From assembly GCF_002843605.1 (NCBI RefSeq), contig NZ_CP025263.1:3625501-3689500 (forward strand): a stretch of DNA of 64,000 bases, in the 5' to 3' direction. The DNA comes from Pseudomonas sp. S09G 359. Its GTDB lineage: Bacteria > Pseudomonadota > Gammaproteobacteria > Pseudomonadales > Pseudomonadaceae. Shown here piece after piece: positions 26,709-42,988 of this stretch; position 1 is the stretch's first letter, and each line of letters begins with the position of its first letter. Made by a program: the position numbers and the translations under genes. Below the pieces are notes generated by a model. It was not told the origin of the DNA. It searched no databases and saw nothing but the letters and a program-made list of their open reading frames with translations.

Positions 26709-27557
26709 TCAGGCCTTCCCGACCTTTGCGGCCAATTCAAGGAAGCGATCCACATACCAGTGAGGCTGCGTCTCGCGGGGGCATTGAGGGCTGGTGAGGT
26801 TCTTGCCGTAGGCCATGCCCTTCTCGGTCACGGACCAGAAGTCGACCATTTCCTGCCTGGAGTTTTTGCGCTGAAGAACCTTGAGGAAGCCGTGGGCCTC
26901 AAGAGCAAGGTTGAAGCCGCGGGCGGTGCTGGCGATGGCGTGATCTTTGATCAGGGCGGTGATTGCCTTGGTAGGCATCGAAGAGCCGCCAGCGGCATCA
27001 GGGGCGGCGTCAACGGCGTAGCCTGGAAGGAACTTGGCGTCCAGGCCGTTGTTGGCGGCGATCTTGGCCAGCATCAGCATCTTGCTGGAGTTGGCAGGCT
27101 TCAACAGGCGGTCGAAGCATTCCAGAATGGCCAGCTCGCCGACGATCTTGGAGTTGTTCGGGCTCTGGGCGGAAAACGAGCCGGTCTTGCGAATGCTCGG
27201 CAGGACCTGGCCCACCACCCACTCTTCGAACTTCTCGGCGGTCGGAAGCTTGGACCTCATTACCAGCCGGTAAAGATCGCGCTCCGGGATAATGGTCATG
27301 AAACCACCACCCTGTTTCGGGGTAGTGGACGCAGCCTTGCAGTGACGGGACACGGCATTCTCTGGCTTGGAGTAGCCGAGGGCGTCAGCGACATCGCGCG
27401 CGACAAACCACGGATCGCCGAGCTTGTCGGTGATGACCCGAATTGCGGCGCCGTCGAAGTCGAACGGAATTACTGCTGAATTGCGCGCCACGTTTTCAGA
27501 TTGCGAAAAACGTGGCGCGAGATTGGTAGTGCTATTGATATGTGGCGGCGTTTGCAT
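26709..27557 (-). CDS. BRO-type antirepressor
   Basis: This 282-residue protein has an N-terminal Bro-N domain (PWFVARDVADALGYSKPENA, ERDLYRLVMRSKLPTAEKFE, WVVGQVLPSIRKTG) and a C-terminal domain of about 130 residues of the antirepressor/KilA-C kind. Such proteins bind DNA or the phage repressor. It is the first gene after cro on the early right transcript. The start at 27557 has AGG 8 nt upstream. The start codon and ribosome site overlap a strong promoter that fires in the opposite direction at 27535-27562, which suggests antisense control. Confidence 0.83.
   Translation of the reverse strand: MQTPPHINSTTNLAPRFSQSENVARNSAVIPFDFDGAAIRVITDKLGDPWFVARDVADALGYSKPENAVSRHCKAASTTPKQGGGFMTIIPERDLYRLVMRSKLPTAEKFEEWVVGQVLPSIRKTGSFSAQSPNNSKIVGELAILECFDRLLKPANSSKMLMLAKIAANNGLDAKFLPGYAVDAAPDAAGGSSMPTKAITALIKDHAIASTARGFNLALEAHGFLKVLQRKNSRQEMVDFWSVTEKGMAYGKNLTSPQCPRETQPHWYVDRFLELAAKVGKA
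27484..27519. repeat. Inverted repeat of the GAAAACGTGGCGCG motif inside the antirepressor gene
   Basis: CGCGCCACGTTTTC at 27484-27497 and GAAAAACGTGGCGCG at 27505-27519 form a near-perfect palindrome with a 7-nt spacer. It lies in codons 13-25 of the antirepressor. The arm sequence also occurs singly at 21378-21392 and 38230-38244. It could be a protein-binding site or an mRNA hairpin near the 5' end. Confidence 0.6.
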
Positions 27558-27562
27558 ATAAT
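27535..27562 (+). promoter_or_regulatory. Strong sigma-70 promoter opposing the antirepressor
   Basis: TTGATA at 27535-27540, a 16-nt spacer and a consensus TATAAT at 27557-27562 read on the plus strand. The -10 box covers the antirepressor start codon. Transcription would start near 27569 and run away from the gene through its leader. Confidence 0.65.
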
Positions 27563-27568
27563 CGACCT

Positions 27569-27614
27569 CGCTAAGTTTTATCGAAGAAGCCGACCTCGAC
27601 CGTCGGCTTTTTTT
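27569..27614 (+). ncRNA. Candidate short antisense RNA to the antirepressor leader
   Basis: A transcript from the promoter at 27535-27562 would begin opposite the antirepressor Shine-Dalgarno sequence and end at the terminator at 27588-27614, giving about 45 nt complementary to the antirepressor mRNA leader. No protein frame is present. Position and logic recall P22 sar RNA, which represses ant, and lambda oop. It is predicted from the promoter and terminator only. Confidence 0.55.
27588..27614 (+). terminator. Intrinsic terminator of the candidate antisense RNA
   Basis: AGCCGAC/GTCGGCT with a 7-nt loop is followed by seven T on the plus strand. On the minus strand the same hairpin is followed by TTCTTCG, so it is a plus-strand terminator. 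There is no protein gene on the plus strand upstream, which points to a small RNA. The stretch 27615-27771 holds nothing else I can identify. Confidence 0.78.
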
Positions 27615-27771
27615 ATTGCCTGTAATTCGGCGCCGAAGCGCCAACCACCTCGCCCTACTCCCCGCATCGCCTCTCTCAAAACCCACTGGATAAAACACCA
27701 GCGACCTCAGGTTTCTTACTTCGCAGACCGGCTGGGCCGATACTGGCTACATGGGCAGAAGGGTTTGCCTG

Positions 27772-27951
27772 TCAGGCGGCTTGGTCTTTCTTTGTCGCCT
27801 TGAACTTGCCCTTGGAAAGGACCTGGATCTGGTACTGCCGGGATTCGGGGATCGTTTCCCCCCACATGGTCACGGCGCTTGGGCGGATGCCCAAAGCGAG
27901 TGCCAGCTTCGTCTTGCTGCCGAAGAATTCGGCGACTTCATGCGTATTCAT
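27772..27951 (-). CDS. cro: Cro-type repressor
   Basis: This 59-residue helix-turn-helix protein starts MNTHEVAEFFGSKTKLALAL, the usual start of short Pseudomonas phage Cro proteins, with the recognition helix in GIRPSAVTMW. It is divergent from cI and lies directly downstream of the inferred PR. The ribosome site is GAGGATGCGCA before the ATG. It should repress cI transcription early in the lytic cycle. It is too short to stand out by length, but the family pattern is clear. Confidence 0.85.
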   Translation of the reverse strand: MNTHEVAEFFGSKTKLALALGIRPSAVTMWGETIPESRQYQIQVLSKGKFKATKKDQAA

Positions 27952-27978
27952 TGCGCATCCTCGTTCGAGCCTGTCGCA

Positions 27979-28007
27979 ATTTAAGCATGCTTAAGTTATG
28001 GCATCAA
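27979..28007 (-). promoter_or_regulatory. Inferred PR promoter with operator
   Basis: On the minus strand TTGATG (28007-28002), a 17-nt spacer and TTAAAT (27984-27979) form a sigma-70 promoter for cro. The perfect 14-bp palindrome TTAAGCATGCTTAA (27981-27994) overlaps the -10 box. The inferred PL at 33.4 kb has the same -10 and an operator in the same relative place. Confidence 0.78.
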
Positions 28008-28050
28008 CGGTGATTTGCACCTACTGCATGCTTAAATTCAGTTAACTTAA
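27981..28050. promoter_or_regulatory. CI/Cro operator region
   Basis: Three related sites lie between cro and cI: TTAAGCATGCTTAA at 27981-27994, a site with the half GCATGCTTAA at 28026-28035, and TTCAGTTAACTTAA at 28037-28050. They fit TTNAGNNNNCTTAA to different degrees. The first overlaps PR; the other two lie upstream of and over the inferred PRM. Confidence 0.72.
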
Positions 28051-28053
28051 TAT
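28048..28053 (+). promoter_or_regulatory. Inferred PRM -10 box; cI mRNA probably leaderless
   Basis: TAATAT ends 7 nt before the cI ATG, so transcription would start at or within a base or two of it. No Shine-Dalgarno sequence precedes the ATG (TATTGAGTCC). No good -35 is seen, which suggests activation by CI. Lambda PRM also makes a leaderless cI mRNA. Confidence 0.55.
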
Positions 28054-28060
28054 TGAGTCC

Positions 28061-28717
28061 ATGGAAAGACACGAACGTATCGCCCGCGCCATACAGGTCA
28101 GCGGTAAAAAGAAAGGGGAAATTGCATCGCTTTGCGGCGTTGCAAATTCGGCCGTCACTCAGTGGATCACCGGCGAGAGCAAAAGCCTCAGGCCGGAGAA
28201 CCTTTACGCCCTGGCGAAAGCGACTGGCTTTCGGGCTGAGTGGCTAGCCATTGGCGAGGGCAATGAACGGGAGGCTACCGAATCAAATATCTCCCCCGCC
28301 GCCCAGCCCACCAAATCATTCCGCTACCCAGTAGTGAGCTGGGTTGCCGCCGGCGCCTGGTCGGAAGCAGTGGAGCCCTACCCGGCTGGAATCTCGGACA
28401 CCTACGAGTTTTCGGAGTACGACTCCAAAGGTCCGGCGTTCTGGCTGACGGTCAAAGGTGACTCGATGACGGCGCCCGCCGGCCAGAGCATCACTGAGGG
28501 CACTCTGATCCTGGTAGACACCGAGGCTGAGGTTGCACCAGGTAAGCTGGTGGTGGCCAAGCTGCCAGACAGCAACGAGGCTACATTCAAGAAGCTGGTC
28601 AGCGACGGCGGTCGGCTGTTCCTGAAACCGCTGAATCCGAGCTACCCGATCGAGGCGGTCGACGAGAACTGCCGGATCGTGGGCGTGGTTGTGCAGGCGC
28701 TGCAGAAGTTTTATTGA
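28061..28717 (+). CDS. cI: CI-type phage repressor with LexA-like self-cleavage domain
   Basis: This 218-residue repressor maintains lysogeny. Residues 1-65 form the helix-turn-helix DNA-binding domain (GEIASLCGVANSAVTQWITG). The C-terminal S24 peptidase domain has the cleavage site A97-G98 in WVAAGAW, the nucleophile S135 in VKGDSMTAP and the general base K177 in ATFKKL. RecA-stimulated self-cleavage would induce the prophage after DNA damage. Two lysogeny-type genes follow on the same strand after 80 nt with no terminator between. Confidence 0.93.
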   Translation: MERHERIARAIQVSGKKKGEIASLCGVANSAVTQWITGESKSLRPENLYALAKATGFRAEWLAIGEGNEREATESNISPAAQPTKSFRYPVVSWVAAGAWSEAVEPYPAGISDTYEFSEYDSKGPAFWLTVKGDSMTAPAGQSITEGTLILVDTEAEVAPGKLVVAKLPDSNEATFKKLVSDGGRLFLKPLNPSYPIEAVDENCRIVGVVVQALQKFY

Positions 28718-28797
28718 GGGCGAAGCGCCGCGAAAGCATACAGGCTCGCGGCCAGCCAAAACCGGACACGCACAGCGTCGAACATGGAAGAAACCTA

Positions 28798-29541
28798 ATG
28801 CCTGAGAGCATTACAGCGATTGAAATCGTCCGGCAGAGTCAACAGGGATATTCGATAAAGCCATTTATTGTGCGGGGAGACGATGGCCATCCATATTTCG
28901 TCAAAGGACTCGACAAGGCAGGCGGGTTCGCACTTATTTCAGAGGCAATTGGCGCCGAGCTTGGGAAGGTTCTAGGCCTTCCAATACCTCCTTGGCGGTT
29001 AATGCACATTCCACAGGATCTGATTGCGTTCAGCGCAATCCCTAATGTGGGGGATCTCGGCGGGGGTCTGGCGTTCGCCTCGCTCGCAGTAGAAAACGCC
29101 TCGGATTTCAATCTCAGTAATATAAACCGGACCCCTTTAGACCTAAGAAGACGAATTCTTCTGTTTGATTTTTGGATTCGGAATGAGGATCGGTGCCTTG
29201 GAGATCGTGGCGGCAACGTGAACCTAATATTGGACGCTAGCGGCGACCTAAATGTCATTGACCACAATCTTGCGTTTGACAGAACGTTTGACTCCGATGC
29301 ATTTATGCAAGGGCACGTTTTTCGAGAATGCAGGTCTTTCTTTAGAGATCTGGTCGTTCGTCAGGACTGTGAGCAAATGCTTAGCGAGGCTATGAAGAAC
29401 TGGGGTACGATCACCGCCCTTTTGCCTAACGACTGGCTTTATCGAGATCGCGACTACATCGATGAATCAGAGCCGACGCTAGCAGAGAGGTTGGAAATGC
29501 TGGAAGTGTTCAAGGAAGAGCGGTTCTGGGGAGCGCTATGA
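28798..29541 (+). CDS. HipA-like kinase
   Basis: This 247-residue protein belongs to the short HipA-like kinase group (HipA_2 type). It lacks the N-terminal half of classical HipA toxins. Kinase features are FIVRGDDGHPYFVKG (nucleotide-binding strand region), WIRNEDRCLGDRGGNVN (catalytic loop-like D and N) and LNVIDHNLAFD (metal-binding D). The start at 28798 follows GGAAGAAACCTA. It overlaps the DUF3037 gene by 4 nt and probably shares the cI transcript. It has no HipB-type antitoxin next to it. AT-richer codon use than cI suggests separate acquisition. The function is unproven. Confidence 0.82.
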   Translation: MPESITAIEIVRQSQQGYSIKPFIVRGDDGHPYFVKGLDKAGGFALISEAIGAELGKVLGLPIPPWRLMHIPQDLIAFSAIPNVGDLGGGLAFASLAVENASDFNLSNINRTPLDLRRRILLFDFWIRNEDRCLGDRGGNVNLILDASGDLNVIDHNLAFDRTFDSDAFMQGHVFRECRSFFRDLVVRQDCEQMLSEAMKNWGTITALLPNDWLYRDRDYIDESEPTLAERLEMLEVFKEERFWGAL

Positions 29542-30374
29542 AATACATATGCAACTATTCAATTTTGAGGTTTTTGCCTTACCCTGAAACAGGCGAGTTC
29601 GTAAATATTGGTATCGTTCTGATTGCCAATAACGGTGACTTTCGCTTCAAAATTGAGAAAAAAAGGCAGCGAATTACTAATTTCTTTCCCAGCCTCGACG
29701 CAAAAATATTCGTCAGAGCTCGCAGGGAAATCGATGTGGAGCTGACACGTCTTAGCGGCTTTCTCACTGTTAATCGCGAAGATGTAGGACTACTCCTCTC
29801 CACTTTCAAACATTTGATTCACCCTCGCGAGACGATGATGAGGTTTAGCGATCCTGGCACTATGGCCACAGATAATGCGGACCAAGCTCTCGCGACTCTT
29901 TTCGATCATTATGTGAATCATAGCTTTGCAACGAAGGAGTATCAGGAAACATTTTTGGAGCGTCAGCTCGGAAAGCTGCTTGCCGCGTCCAACCTTAAGC
30001 AGCGCTACAGCGAGCAAAAACTGGGCAATGCTGATTATCCGGTTAAGTTTCCGTTCGTGCTGATGAGTGGCATTGAACCGGTCCAGGCCTTGAAGCCAAT
30101 CCACTTGGGACATGACGAGTCGGCCAAGATCATTGAGCATGGCGATGCCTGGATTTCGAAGATCAGACGCCTGAATGCCGCTGGGCAACTCGCAAAAGAT
30201 ACCCTTTTCATTGCCGGACCTCCCGAAGAAGGCAAGCCAAAGCTACTGAGGGCATATCGGGAGATTTCTGAAGAGCTTAAGTCTTTTCCAGGAATACGCG
30301 TCACCAGTTCGGAAGAAGGGAAATCGGCATTGCTGGAAAAAATAAAACAAGGCATTCCAGATACGCTCCACTGA
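29538..30374 (+). CDS. DUF3037 protein, partner of the HipA-like kinase
   Basis: This 278-residue protein begins MKYICNYSILRFLPYPETGE and continues with FVNIGIVL, the DUF3037 signature. The middle and C-terminal parts are helical and charged, with no catalytic motif that I recognise. The start overlaps the kinase stop by ATGA, so the two are probably made in fixed ratio. HipA_2-type kinases and DUF3037 proteins are recurrent neighbours in bacterial genomes. A terminator follows at 30383. Possible roles are phage exclusion or a toxin/antidote pair, by analogy to rexAB position. Confidence 0.82.
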   Translation: MKYICNYSILRFLPYPETGEFVNIGIVLIANNGDFRFKIEKKRQRITNFFPSLDAKIFVRARREIDVELTRLSGFLTVNREDVGLLLSTFKHLIHPRETMMRFSDPGTMATDNADQALATLFDHYVNHSFATKEYQETFLERQLGKLLAASNLKQRYSEQKLGNADYPVKFPFVLMSGIEPVQALKPIHLGHDESAKIIEHGDAWISKIRRLNAAGQLAKDTLFIAGPPEEGKPKLLRAYREISEELKSFPGIRVTSSEEGKSALLEKIKQGIPDTLH

Positions 30375-30382
30375 AGAGTATG

Positions 30383-30406
30383 AGCCCGGCCCAGCGCCGG
30401 GCTTCT
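30383..30406 (+). terminator. Terminator of the cI-kinase-DUF3037 unit
   Basis: AGCCCGGC/GCCGGGCT with a 4-nt loop is followed by TCTTGT, 8 nt after the DUF3037 stop. The T run is weak but the stem is strong. The following 220 nt (to 30625) hold no gene and presumably carry the promoter of the glycine-zipper gene. Confidence 0.6.
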
Positions 30407-30625
30407 TGTATCTGCCCATTCACACTCGGGCTCCTCTGGTCATCCCAATTTTTGGTGAAACCGCTTAAGCCTGCCCTTCGCCGCTGAAGCCATCACGGCA
30501 TATCTTGTTACAACCATTCGCCTGTAGGCACCGCCTGTAGAGAACTACAAACTTCTACTCCAGTCCTAATGCTAGGCGTGCTTTAAACCGTGAGCGCCTG
30601 CTGACAGCCCATAGAGGTTCAAAAA

Positions 30626-31057
30626 ATGAAAATTACACTGCCTGCCCTATTTTTAGGCGTCCTCATCTCGCAAGGAGCAATGGCTGCCGGAGATGGCACA
30701 GCCGGCCTTGGAGGCGGCGTTGGTGGTGCACTTGGCAATATCGTAGGCCAACAGCTCGGCGGCTCAACTGGCGCGGCAGTAGGCGCAGGCGTAGGTGGTG
30801 CTGCCGGCAGTGCTGTCGGCGCTCAGAGAGGCAACAGAGCTGAAGCCGCATTAGGTGGCGGTATCGGCTCGGCTGGTGGCTCGCTCATCGGTAATCGCCT
30901 CGGCGGCACGACTGGCTCGACGATCGGCGCAGGTCTAGGCGGCGCTGCGGGTGGAGCGCTTGGAAACAACCTGGCGGATGATGAGAGCAATCATCGGTCG
31001 GATGGTAAGAAGCACAAAGGCAACAACAAGCATAAACACAAGAACAAGCATCGTTAG
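30626..31057 (+). CDS. Exported glycine-zipper protein
   Basis: This 143-residue protein has a signal peptide (MKITLPALFLGVLISQGAMA) and a body of GxxxG-rich glycine-zipper repeats over residues 25-118 (GGVGGALGNIVGQQLGG, GAAVGAGVGGAAGSAVG). Such repeats pack in membranes or form oligomers. The end is a strongly basic His/Lys/Asn tail (KHKGNNKHKHKNKHR). Similar chromosomal proteins occur in Pseudomonas. It is cargo in the lysogeny region; a role in the envelope or as a membrane-active factor is possible but not shown. Confidence 0.72.
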   Translation: MKITLPALFLGVLISQGAMAAGDGTAGLGGGVGGALGNIVGQQLGGSTGAAVGAGVGGAAGSAVGAQRGNRAEAALGGGIGSAGGSLIGNRLGGTTGSTIGAGLGGAAGGALGNNLADDESNHRSDGKKHKGNNKHKHKNKHR

Positions 31058-31077
31058 TTTCTGACGCGGTTACATCG

Positions 31078-31105
31078 AGCCCGGCCCTGCGTCGGGCTTC
31101 TTGTT
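31078..31105 (+). terminator. Terminator after the glycine-zipper gene
   Basis: GCCCG/CGGGC with a 9-nt loop is followed by TTCTTGTTT, about 20 nt after the stop codon. It resembles the element at 30383. Confidence 0.55.
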
Positions 31106-31165
31106 TCTGGCGAGCCACTACCCTGCTATGGTGGCGCCCTTAGATCGCAATGGAAGCAATGAAGC

Positions 31166-31492
31166 ATGGAGTTATGTAAGACACTGGCGATAGCCCTACT
31201 GGCATCGGTCAGCACGCAGGCCGTATCAGGTGATGGCGCCAACCCTATCGCTGCCGCGATATTTCTCACAATCTCCGCGCCAACCATTTTAATTGGGGCG
31301 ACCACATCTCTCACGACCGAGCCGCCAAAGATTTTCAAGTCGGCCAAGACCGACGCTTTAGCATTCATCGGTTCAGGCGGCGAGATTCGCGGTGCGGAGT
31401 TTGAGCAGGCCTCCCGGTATTATCGTTCGGCATACACATCGCCTCATATGTCCGACATGCAGCTGGCGCAGGCGATAGCGACCTCGCTCTGA
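31166..31492 (+). CDS. Exported DUF2388-like protein, first copy
   Basis: This 108-residue protein has a signal peptide (MELCKTLAIALLASVSTQAVS) and the C-terminal DUF2388-type core KTDALAFIGSGGEIRGAEFEQASRYYR. DUF2388 is a small periplasmic family typical of Pseudomonas with unknown function. The next gene is a paralogue with the same core. Both start regions share CGCAATGGAAGCAAYGAAG, so the duplication included the ribosome binding site. Confidence 0.75.
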   Translation: MELCKTLAIALLASVSTQAVSGDGANPIAAAIFLTISAPTILIGATTSLTTEPPKIFKSAKTDALAFIGSGGEIRGAEFEQASRYYRSAYTSPHMSDMQLAQAIATSL

Positions 31493-31588
31493 TGTCGACC
31501 TAAAGATGCCCGCAGTGACGGCCTTCTGGCTTCCCCCCCGCTGGAACCCGATCGCGCTCTACTTTAAACGCAATGGAAGCAACGAAGA

Positions 31589-37987: not shown

Positions 37988-38326
37988 ATGGCAAAATCAG
38001 TACAGGAGCGGTCGGCCAAGGCTGCGCAGAAGCGTCTGGCGGTCGCAGAGAAGGAATTGCGGCACAAGGTCAGGCCGGGCATCGAGCAGGCCATGGAGCG
38101 AATCCGGCTGCGCGGCCAGGTGCCGATCATCAGCGAGCTTCTTCAGATCGCCATCATGAAGATGGACTTGATGGGCGACCACGAGTTGATCGAGTTCTTG
38201 AGCTATCCGCGCCACGAAATCGTGATTAGCGAAAACGTGGCGCGTAGATTCCAAGAGGAGAGCCTGCGGGAAATCAGGAGAGATTCAGGTGATGAGACAT
38301 TTCATCCAGGCATACTTAATAAGTAA
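37988..38326 (+). CDS. Early phage hypothetical protein
   Basis: This 112-residue helical protein begins MAKSVQERSAKAAQKRLAVA and has a basic N-terminal helix followed by IIS-ELLQIAIMKMDLMGDHEL. The ribosome site is AGAGGTAGGCC. Codons for ISENVARRF carry the 15-mer CGAAAACGTGGCGCG (38230-38244), shared with 21378 and the antirepressor gene. The last codons hold GGCATACTTAA (38304 region), which resembles a CI operator half. It converges with the AbiC-like gene, the two stops overlapping by about 10 nt. Confidence 0.66.
   Translation: MAKSVQERSAKAAQKRLAVAEKELRHKVRPGIEQAMERIRLRGQVPIISELLQIAIMKMDLMGDHELIEFLSYPRHEIVISENVARRFQEESLREIRRDSGDETFHPGILNK
38230..38244. repeat. Copy of the CGAAAACGTGGCGCG motif
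   Basis: The 15-mer is identical to 21378-21392, and its last 14 bases to the inverted copy at 27484-27497. Here it lies in a coding region of the early operon, 17 kb and 10.7 kb from the other copies. Confidence 0.55.
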
Positions 38327-39155
38327 TGTCAGATGCTCTCTTCAACGTACTGGCGCTACAAGCCCCGCATCTGTTACGACTAAACGTATCGAGAATTTCA
38401 GTATTTGCGCCGTAGGATTCAGAGGCTAGATAAAGCACATCTGACATATCCAACAACATCGCAGGCTCTAAATTATCGAATATAGCAAACTCGGTTATAT
38501 AAACCCGAAACTTTTTCCCCTTCTCACCTAGACTATTATAAAATAAAATTACCAACTCAAAATCAGACAGCAAAGATCTAACTACGTTTCCGAACTTTCT
38601 CTGGTCTGGATGATTACACTCAGAGACAAACCTAAAAACCGAATAGAGGCTTCGAAAATACAGACCAAGATCGCCATGAAATCTTCTCATAACTTCACGA
38701 TAAGCAACCCCCATTCTTTCCTCATGCGTTCCTTTGGCGTTACGATATTCGTTTCGCAAATGCCAAACCCAAGTCTTAAAACAATCCCTACCAAGCATTT
38801 TTACGACACCATTTTTCTTGATGTCAAAACTTTGAACTACACCCTGCTGCAGGCTTAGCATATTATAAAATTGCGAGTCGATTTGCTGCCTAAAGTTCTG
38901 CTCCTGACTTCCCTGCAAGTCTTTACGCTGTATAAGCAAAGTAATTAAAACACCGGAGAATGCCAGACCAGAAAACAGAGCATTAAGCGTTCCAAATGCG
39001 TCACCAAACGTCCCGCCCCGAACACCTTTTAGCTCTTTTAAATCTTCTGGAGATGAAAAGCCTGAATATAGAAAACTATAATAACCAGCATATATCCCCA
39101 GTACGATCACGACTACTATCGTGATTACCCACCCCAAGCCTATTTTATTTTTCAT
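38316..39155 (-). CDS. Putative phage abortive infection protein (AbiC-like)
   Basis: This 279-residue membrane protein is encoded against the early operon. Two transmembrane segments lie at residues 7-29 (WVITIVVVIVLGIYAGYY) and about 52-75, the second in the GTFGDAFGTLNALFSGLAFS block that is the signature of the putative AbiC-like family. A Gln-rich helix and a large cytoplasmic helical domain follow (QIDSQFYNMLSLQQGVVQSF). The DNA is clearly AT-richer than neighbouring phage genes. It is the strongest single candidate for a prophage-encoded anti-phage gene in this arm. Evidence for activity is by family name only. Confidence 0.75.
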   Translation of the reverse strand: MKNKIGLGWVITIVVVIVLGIYAGYYSFLYSGFSSPEDLKELKGVRGGTFGDAFGTLNALFSGLAFSGVLITLLIQRKDLQGSQEQNFRQQIDSQFYNMLSLQQGVVQSFDIKKNGVVKMLGRDCFKTWVWHLRNEYRNAKGTHEERMGVAYREVMRRFHGDLGLYFRSLYSVFRFVSECNHPDQRKFGNVVRSLLSDFELVILFYNSLGEKGKKFRVYITEFAIFDNLEPAMLLDMSDVLYLASESYGANTEILDTFSRNRCGACSASTLKRASDITY

Positions 39156-39174
39156 TCGATCCTACCTATCCACT

Positions 39175-39191
39175 CTCGGCTCCTATGCCGG
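39175..39191. repeat. Recurrent hairpin CTCGGC..ATGCCGG
   Basis: CTCGGCTCCTATGCCGG forms a short stem (CGGC/GCCG). Closely similar hairpins lie at 40518-40533 (TCCGGCCTCATGCCGG) and 44015-44031 (CCTCGGCCCCATGCCGG). All three are at junctions between early-operon genes and minus-strand inserts. Confidence 0.45.
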
Positions 39192-39280
39192 CCGCACACA
39201 AATAACCGAAAAACAACCATTTTGCCATCACTCATTGCCACCACCGGTAGCGGAGGGCGGCGCCTGACTGGAGATAATCC

Positions 39281-39919
39281 ATGAGCAAGCCAAAAGCCGA
39301 TCCGGCATCGCGTAAGGTGCTGGCCTACTCCGTAGAGACCAACGACCCTGAAGAATCCAACATTCAGTTCGCCACCTCGAACGCTGCAGCTCGCCGCCAG
39401 GGCGCAGATAATATCGGTACTGACTTTGGTTCGGTTTCTTGCCGCCGTGCCCACTGGACCGACCAGTATGTCGGCCAGCGCTTTATCCCAGCGAAAGCCT
39501 ACATCGATGCTGGCTGGTGGTTCGGATGCACCCACTGCGGCGCCAGGTGCGACAGTGATGCCAGCTACTGGGATGAAGAGACCGAAACCGATATCACACT
39601 GGATTTGGTGTTCGACGGCCGTGTCGTTTACTGCTCGCCTGAGTGTAAGACTGGGCACGAAGCTGAGGTCGCGGCCCGCAATGCCAGATTTGAAGAATTC
39701 AAGGTTCGTGTGGCAGCAGAGCGACCCGGCGTGACCTTCACCGAGTTCACCGGCGGATACCCGTGGTGCGGTAACAAAGGGTTATTCACCTTCCCTGGTG
39801 CCCAGTACGGCGGCTCAGTTACTGACAACGAAGAAAGCACGGAGCTGAAATGGTATGTGGCACAAAGCGACAAAGCTGCTTGGGACTACTTCATTGCTGA
39901 GCAGTCCGTTCCTGATTAG
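39281..39919 (+). CDS. Early phage protein with zinc-binding cysteines
   Basis: This 212-residue plus-strand protein belongs to the early operon. The middle region has CTHCGARCD and VYCSPECK, two cysteine pairs that fit a zinc finger. The N-terminal half is mixed (DFGSVSCRRAHWTDQYVGQR), and the C-terminal half is aromatic-rich (GYPWCGNKGLFTFPGAQYGG). The start follows GACTGGAGATAATCC. There is no recognised family. It is flanked on both sides by minus-strand cargo. Confidence 0.66.
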   Translation: MSKPKADPASRKVLAYSVETNDPEESNIQFATSNAAARRQGADNIGTDFGSVSCRRAHWTDQYVGQRFIPAKAYIDAGWWFGCTHCGARCDSDASYWDEETETDITLDLVFDGRVVYCSPECKTGHEAEVAARNARFEEFKVRVAAERPGVTFTEFTGGYPWCGNKGLFTFPGAQYGGSVTDNEESTELKWYVAQSDKAAWDYFIAEQSVPD

Positions 39920-42322: not shown

Positions 42323-42988
42323 TCATGTTTTGAAGACAGTATCAGCCAGCCTTGGATGTAAATACGTACCGAGCAATAAGTGCTCAAGTACATTCATTGC
42401 CAAGTCAAGCTGTTCGGGGCTACTTGGCTTTGCTTCATGAGCTGCTGTATTTCCTAAAGATCTTAATTTATGAAGAATCGAAACATCAGTTTTAGTTATC
42501 GCCCCCCTCACCAAAAGATCGTTTATTTTCTTAAATAAATAATCGCCTTCAGCCTTGAGGTCAACGCAAATTGACTCAAGTAGAACCCGAATCCCTAGGC
42601 CCGCAAGAATTGTTTGGCCGGCATTCATAGCGTCAACTAGTTCGTCATAGGCTTTACGAACTATAGGTGGCAACAAAAAAGAGTCTTTGATCTTGAACCG
42701 TCCTGCGGTTCTATGGGGAAAAATATCCACTGAAGTCCAATGAAAGTCCTCCCCTGTTTCCATATCATAAGCATGAGATTCAGAATCATCATACTCACTA
42801 CGAAAGCAAAGTGCCTCACAGTTGAGACACTGAACTATTTGGTATGATTTTTTGGATTCAAAATTACTCTCTTCGATGCAGTCCTCCATGGAAGTTAGCA
42901 CTACATGCTTTTGAGGAATGCGACATTCCGCACATATCAGCTTTAGCTGTTCGCCAGCTGTTTTGTCTTTTTTGATTGTCCGTTCCAT
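42323..42988 (-). CDS. DUF4145 protein
   Basis: This 221-residue protein has an N-terminal zinc-ribbon-like part (C19-AE-C22, then QCLNCEALCF) and the DUF4145 core (LPPIVRKAYDELVDAMNAGQ, GLGIRVLLESICVDLKA) with the final LRSLGNTAAHEAKP block. DUF4145 domains often accompany restriction or other defence genes; their role is not settled. The coding strand is opposite to the early operon and the DNA is AT-rich, as for the other inserted genes. Confidence 0.75.
   Translation of the reverse strand: MERTIKKDKTAGEQLKLICAECRIPQKHVVLTSMEDCIEESNFESKKSYQIVQCLNCEALCFRSEYDDSESHAYDMETGEDFHWTSVDIFPHRTAGRFKIKDSFLLPPIVRKAYDELVDAMNAGQTILAGLGIRVLLESICVDLKAEGDYLFKKINDLLVRGAITKTDVSILHKLRSLGNTAAHEAKPSSPEQLDLAMNVLEHLLLGTYLHPRLADTVFKT

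Follow-up and report, generated by a model that had tools for sequence, protein, structure and literature searches.

The question raised by this locus is what a kinase gene and a DUF3037 gene, lying directly behind the cI repressor gene of a Pseudomonas prophage, do for the prophage that carries them. The window, the 64,000-nucleotide stretch of Pseudomonas sp. S09G 359 DNA that was analysed, sits in a 6.77-Mb single-contig genome. We consider it probable, at roughly 0.8, that this pair is a prophage HipAD whose two genes close the repressor operon and which would exclude other phages abortively.

Organization of the repressor operon

The prophage in the window is lambda-like, with a recognizable tape measure protein, major head protein, large terminase and replication initiator, as well as a Cro-like regulator, cI, an exonuclease, a Gam-like protein and an integrase. 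The cI gene (28061–28717, forward strand) encodes an S24-type phage repressor (Peptidase_S24, E 1.9e-27; HTH_3, E 1.2e-5; phrog_4 repressor, E 1.9e-51) and is presumed to be the first gene of the lysogenic transcript. Divergent from it lies a gene on the reverse strand (27772–27951; phrog_409 transcriptional regulator, E 1.4e-19, match given as 27787–27954) whose place suggests the name Cro. The interval between the two contains a perfect 14-bp palindrome (27981–27994), probably an operator, with a three-mismatch copy at 28022–28035; five matches with at most three mismatches occur in the window against 1.46 expected, and the exact sequence is found only at 27981–27994.

Downstream of cI on the same strand follow hipA (28798–29541), encoding a 247-aa kinase of the HipA_2 family (PF20613, E 1.7e-66), and hipD (29538–30374), encoding a 278-aa DUF3037 protein (PF11236, E 1.6e-21). 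The spacing is 80 nt between cI and the kinase gene and −4 nt between the kinase and DUF3037 genes. An alternative in-frame TTG start at 28714 would give a kinase of 275 aa; the best 60 homologues measure 246–249 aa except for two (227 and 276 aa), in agreement with a start at the ATG at 28798. The unit ends at an intrinsic terminator (30382–30404, forward strand), located by hairpin scan and folding, with a 9-bp stem that includes seven G-C pairs. The 44-nt stretch around it folds at −18.9 kcal/mol (z −3.0); the pattern scan is weak alone, giving six terminator-like sites against 4.7 expected in shuffles. One further hairpin, at 28692–28704 (5 bp and a T-run), overlaps the end of cI, and its fold does not rise above shuffles (z +0.66). 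Open reading frames and folding thus bear out the gene order, the spacing and the single terminator after DUF3037 described in the earlier note, which was also right that the pair is AT-richer than cI (GC 0.501 for the kinase gene and 0.471 for the DUF3037 gene against 0.597, with 0.578 for the window). A consensus scan showed no promoter-like site in the cI–kinase interval, but it also missed any before cI, so that this absence says little.

The same pattern extends to relatives. Among 165 HipD-bearing loci, counting the window together with L001 and L095, which are copies of it, the kinase gene adjoins hipD upstream on the same strand in 154 by longest-ORF calls; the two genes overlap in 151 of these, by exactly 4 nt in 96. 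Among 70 linked loci that differ in their downstream sequence, 59 have a terminator-like site within 150 nt after HipD (2.3 expected from shuffles); none of 50 has one between cI and HipA (1.4 expected). The scan is a simple one, and the first contrast is large and the second small. L001, L095, loci with an identical downstream 60 nt and loci with short flanks were dropped from this survey, and the gap test also dropped gaps above 350 nt and overlapping ORF calls, the window's own gap lying outside the 50. A terminator separating the pair from cI, which had been named as evidence that would overturn the earlier reading, was found neither in the window nor in relatives. The idea that hipAD forms a transcription unit of its own was accordingly set aside, there being no convincing cI–hipA terminator in the window or in the 50 relatives, and no promoter-like site there in the consensus scan of the window that likewise missed the cI promoter; as far as sequence can tell, the three genes appear to form one operon.

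Several other features of the prophage were recorded. A near-copy of the hipD terminator (31077–31099) lies 3′ of a glycine-zipper gene (30626–31057). An AT-rich island on the reverse strand (38319–39155, with 39155–39658; GC about 0.40–0.43) encodes a 279-aa protein at 38319–39155 that matches putAbiC (E 6.9e-16) and PADLOC AbiP (E 2.7e-12); with this putAbiC/AbiP-type gene the prophage probably has a second defence gene. A DUF4145 protein (E 8.1e-16) is encoded at 42326–42988 on the reverse strand, and its match to PD-T7-4 is weak (E 2.3e-5).

Relationship to known systems

By sequence, the window pair is assigned to HipAD (DS-6; PADLOC candidate PDC-M66), which is known as an anti-phage toxin-antitoxin system of two genes. 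A HipA-family kinase with its catalytic residues is present, as is a DUF3037 partner directly downstream in what appears to be the same operon, and the kinase fold of HipA was counted in support of the assignment. The two proteins match PDC-M66A (E 4.6e-10, over part of the kinase) and PDC-M66B (E 6.8e-20), judged without PADLOC's own cut-offs. The earlier note's statement that such pairs have no established function is out of date, homologues having been tested in work described in the available text of PMC13092281 and PMC12548924. According to the latter, a HipA/DUF3037 pair beside the retron Sda1 acts without the retron; once the kinase is deleted the defence against Bas51 is lost, whereas removing DUF3037 is toxic. 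The available part of PMC13092281, which renames DS-6 as HipAD, reports that a catalytic mutation in DS-6A loses defence, proposes a toxin-antitoxin logic and cites Brenes & Laub 2025. The likeness of the window pair to DS-6 is drawn by description rather than by sequence: both join a HipA-like kinase to a DUF3037 partner, whereas the DUF1829 described there for DS-6B has no Pfam match in the window HipD or in that of Escherichia phage PhiR5_1 (limit E 10). PDC-M66 and the Sda1-side pair belong to the same two families as the window pair, which, however, adjoins a phage repressor and not a retron reverse transcriptase.

Homologues in three phages, of E. coli, Salmonella and Klebsiella, are about 27–34% identical to the window proteins; one of the three, SW-37, has a short kinase ORF (167 aa). 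The GenBank record of PhiR5_1 (PV340545) annotates the two genes that directly follow cI as HipA toxin and HipD antitoxin. PhiR5_1 and Klebsiella phage Kp4864-1 share with the window the order cI, HipA, HipD on one strand, but have other repressors and hosts, and cI–HipA gaps of 122 and 94 nt as opposed to 80 nt. The arrangement is also seen in E. coli AR_452, the one genome that was opened, and the PhiR5_1 pair is present in 283 of 5,426 complete E. coli genomes. Given the PhiR5_1 annotation and the HipAD papers, both the system and, for one phage, its position behind cI were already public. Our literature search found no paper that states the link of HipAD to cI, Brenes & Laub 2025 lying outside its reach.

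The position of the pair, on one strand behind cI with no terminator between, is indeed that of rexAB, as the earlier note had proposed. Lambda RexAB, the RexAB-type system of P. putida prophage P1 (available text of PMC12894663) and genes 43/44 of the Gordonia phage CarolAnn (available text of PMC6426606) are exclusion genes behind repressors and expressed with them. The RexAB-type systems have a membrane protein; the window has a kinase pair, with no match to RexA, RexB or DUF4747. Homology to RexAB was rejected, since the only matches of the pair in Pfam, PHROGs and NCBIfam are HipA_2, DUF3037 and unnamed PHROGs. For P. aeruginosa phage Fc02, the available text of PMC9936078 places exclusion genes upstream of the repressor and does not name HipA. 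HipAB and HipBST differ in having HipB or HipS beside the kinase, whereas the neighbours here are an S24 cI and DUF3037. The absence of a HipB antitoxin claimed in the earlier note holds among the five neighbouring proteins scanned, where a helix-turn-helix occurs only in cI. The window kinase differs from those systems also in its Pfam family, HipA_2, and the antitoxin role would be taken by DUF3037.

Association with repressors

A search for the pair next to phage repressors had been suggested. A repressor gene lies upstream of HipA, on the same strand and within 1.5 kb, in 71 of the 80 viral-contig loci, all 3 phage loci and 12 of the 80 bacterial-genome loci, as called by a profile that started from three cI seeds and was then widened with sequences from the loci. 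The viral and bacterial-genome sets are 80 kept of 110 and 80 of 127 confirmed loci, and the count over all 165 loci takes in the window as well as its two copies L001 and L095, of which L095 belongs to the 71. The other nine viral loci comprise one without a called kinase, two that are cut short and six without a repressor in this range (L124, L130, L132, L136, L158, L160), L130 having one 1.9 kb upstream. When four repressor candidates were compared with the PDB, lambda CI was matched by L125 and L248, L086 had no match and L162 had only implausible ones, so that the calls at the last two loci come from the profile.

In a draw of Pseudomonas genomes, DUF3037 was found in 20 of 398. Eight of the 18 loci fetched stand behind a repressor (L235, L244, L246, L248–L252), the window making nine of 19; the window's own hit and the weak G014 are the two of the 20 that were not among the 18. 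The close homologues bearing a name are nearly all from Pseudomonas, with one from Pantoea.

The loci L248–L252 hold very diverged kinase/DUF3037 pairs behind CI-type repressors, the distance staying within 80 nt in all but L251 (633 nt). The L248 kinase shows 26% identity over 179 residues, its partner is alignable mainly over 22 residues, and its repressor matches lambda CI. At the viral contigs L157–L160, the place of cI before the kinase is taken by a small gene (about 80 aa). We take this gene to resemble DinI, and SOS-linked expression of the pair is possible there.

The bacterial-genome loci divide into 12 with a repressor, 53 without, five with less than 700 nt upstream of the kinase and ten without an adjacent kinase. 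The 53 have a kinase and upstream room, yet no repressor of this kind, and control by cI is thus not needed for HipAD as such. This bears on the proposal that HipAD serves prophage addiction, killing cells that lose the prophage as HipD decays first and HipA remains, with exclusion being secondary. The toxicity of deleting DUF3037 from the homologous pair (available text of PMC12548924) would fit such a role, and coupling to cI would mean that loss of the prophage ends the supply of HipD. The 53 copies lacking a repressor speak against it, however, as do the homologues that defend against phage directly (available text of PMC12548924 and PMC13092281) and the case of HicAB2, another prophage toxin-antitoxin, in P. 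putida P1, which aided neither stability nor defence according to the available text of PMC12894663. We regard addiction as unlikely, and abortive exclusion remains the preferred reading.

The slot behind related cI genes was also read at 20 loci, and 43 proteins from 17 of them, with crude gene calls, were compared with Pfam and PADLOC. DUF1654 is the commonest occupant (7 of 43 proteins), L202 carries HipAD, and L208 has a PDC-S05 protein about 1.8 kb off on the opposite strand. The similarity of L202 to the window extends through the glycine-zipper gene, to 31108. At L196 (2665–3950), two overlapping ORFs of 177 and 279 aa stand behind a 73%-identical cI at the place of the window's HipAD, the 279-aa ORF having a weak match to PDC-M24B (E 1.1e-4).

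Exchange between repressors and selection

The pair is found behind repressors that show no pairwise similarity to one another. The locus L085 resembles the window throughout (cI 94%, HipA 91%, HipD 96%), and L101 joins a close cI (84%) to a distant pair (64% and 69%). L086 and L087 have HipA 89–90% and HipD 95% identical to those of the window, and both carry one identical repressor without similarity to the window cI beyond 16 residues. When their DNA is compared with positions 27500–31500 of the window, similarity is confined to 28684–30416, from the last 34 nt of cI to past the terminator. The piece from the end of cI is found 3′ of the stop codon at which their own repressor gene ends and thus looks like the leftover tail of a window-type cI. 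Either the pair moved or the repressor before it was swapped; on both accounts the pair stays behind a repressor. The leftover tail and leader (L086, 5127–5260) are well conserved with the window, whereas synonymous sites of hipA are not (dS 0.9); the swap may be young or the stretch regulatory.

Over 94 rows, the repressors form 16 clusters at 40% identity, and the window's HipD cluster (60% identity) goes with seven of them; at 90% identity there are 72 repressor and 51 HipD clusters. These rows are not all independent: L235 and L244 lie on contigs equal in length to those of L006 and L005, a single prophage seems to underlie L005 and L091, and the repressor is shared by L086 and L087.

Could the two genes be passengers with no present function? 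Their lower GC content, as is often seen in recently acquired genes, might suggest so. Against this, dN/dS relative to L085, L086 and L087 is 0.058–0.065 for HipA and 0.021–0.022 for HipD, values that are rough, dS being high, and dS is saturated in most of nine further comparisons. Relatives also occur in many bacterial genera, and the kinase residues are nearly invariant: among 144 distinct relatives K36 is kept in 139, D131 in 142, N142 in 142 and D155 in 137, the remainder being nearly all gaps. The loss of catalytic residues in most homologues, which the earlier note had held would count against it, is therefore not seen, and a passenger role is scarcely credible beside a defensive one.

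A possible sensor domain in HipD

The HipD model shows a C-terminal domain. This half of the protein resembles a nuclease fold and DNA enzymes in the model, and may have a PD-(D/E)XK-like fold. Its strand A184-x-K186 has K in 139 of 154 sequences and A, V, I or L at position 184 in 151 of 154, leaving no acid at the motif as placed from predicted strands rather than by superposition; the domain is apparently without catalytic acids. Foldseek with the whole HipD model gave no matches at E 0.001, and profile searches of PDB chains with HipA and HipD gave two chance-level matches each (best E 0.15 and 0.069).

A domain of this kind might also suit a regulator of the lysogeny switch, in which HipD, through a possible DNA-binding domain, or the kinase would act on CI, Cro or their promoter. 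Lambda RexA acts on PRM, the available text of PMC12894663 treats RexA and switch control, AlphaFold3 places DS-6B on DNA (available text of PMC13092281), and the modelled HipD fold resembles DNA enzymes. The window's HipD cluster, however, stands behind seven repressor clusters and so matches no single operator or repressor, and copies without a nearby repressor exist. A switch regulator is accordingly very improbable in our estimation.

Proposed function

Exclusion by HipAD could proceed as follows. In the lysogen, the cI transcript would also yield HipA and HipD, and HipD would hold the kinase inactive, as the tested homologues suggest. Infection by another phage would free HipA, perhaps when the nuclease-like, apparently inactive C-terminal domain of HipD binds DNA or a protein of the incoming phage. 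Once free, HipA would phosphorylate a host factor, probably of translation, stopping growth so that the infection fails. Upon prophage induction, transcription from cI would drop and the module would go off with it, sparing the prophage's own lytic growth. The earlier note's picture of a kinase toxin and its antidote, serving exclusion and kept on by the repressor operon, fits the published homologues, as the available text of PMC13092281 and PMC12548924 describes them.

A more far-reaching proposal, which we offer tentatively and at less than even odds, is that prophage HipAD has specialised for a place at the end of the repressor transcript and is a module passed between prophages of different immunity, with HipD as a two-domain sensor. 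On this proposal, HipAD recurs after cI and before a terminator because it can be used safely only when its level follows that of cI up and down, and the dead nuclease-like domain of HipD would read invading DNA or a phage protein. The diverged HipA/DUF3037 branch of L248–L252 in the same slot suggests repeated or ancient selection for the place.

As far as we have seen, the repressor-link and terminator numbers, the recombination scar and the reading of the HipD C-terminal domain are new here. The locus extends a defence system tested in E. coli to Pseudomonas prophages, and the survey ties its prophage form, over many loci, to the repressor operon. The natural pairs and their repressor contexts make up a ready set in which to look for what triggers HipAD and what its kinase targets, and the place behind cI may be a good spot in which to seek further defence genes.
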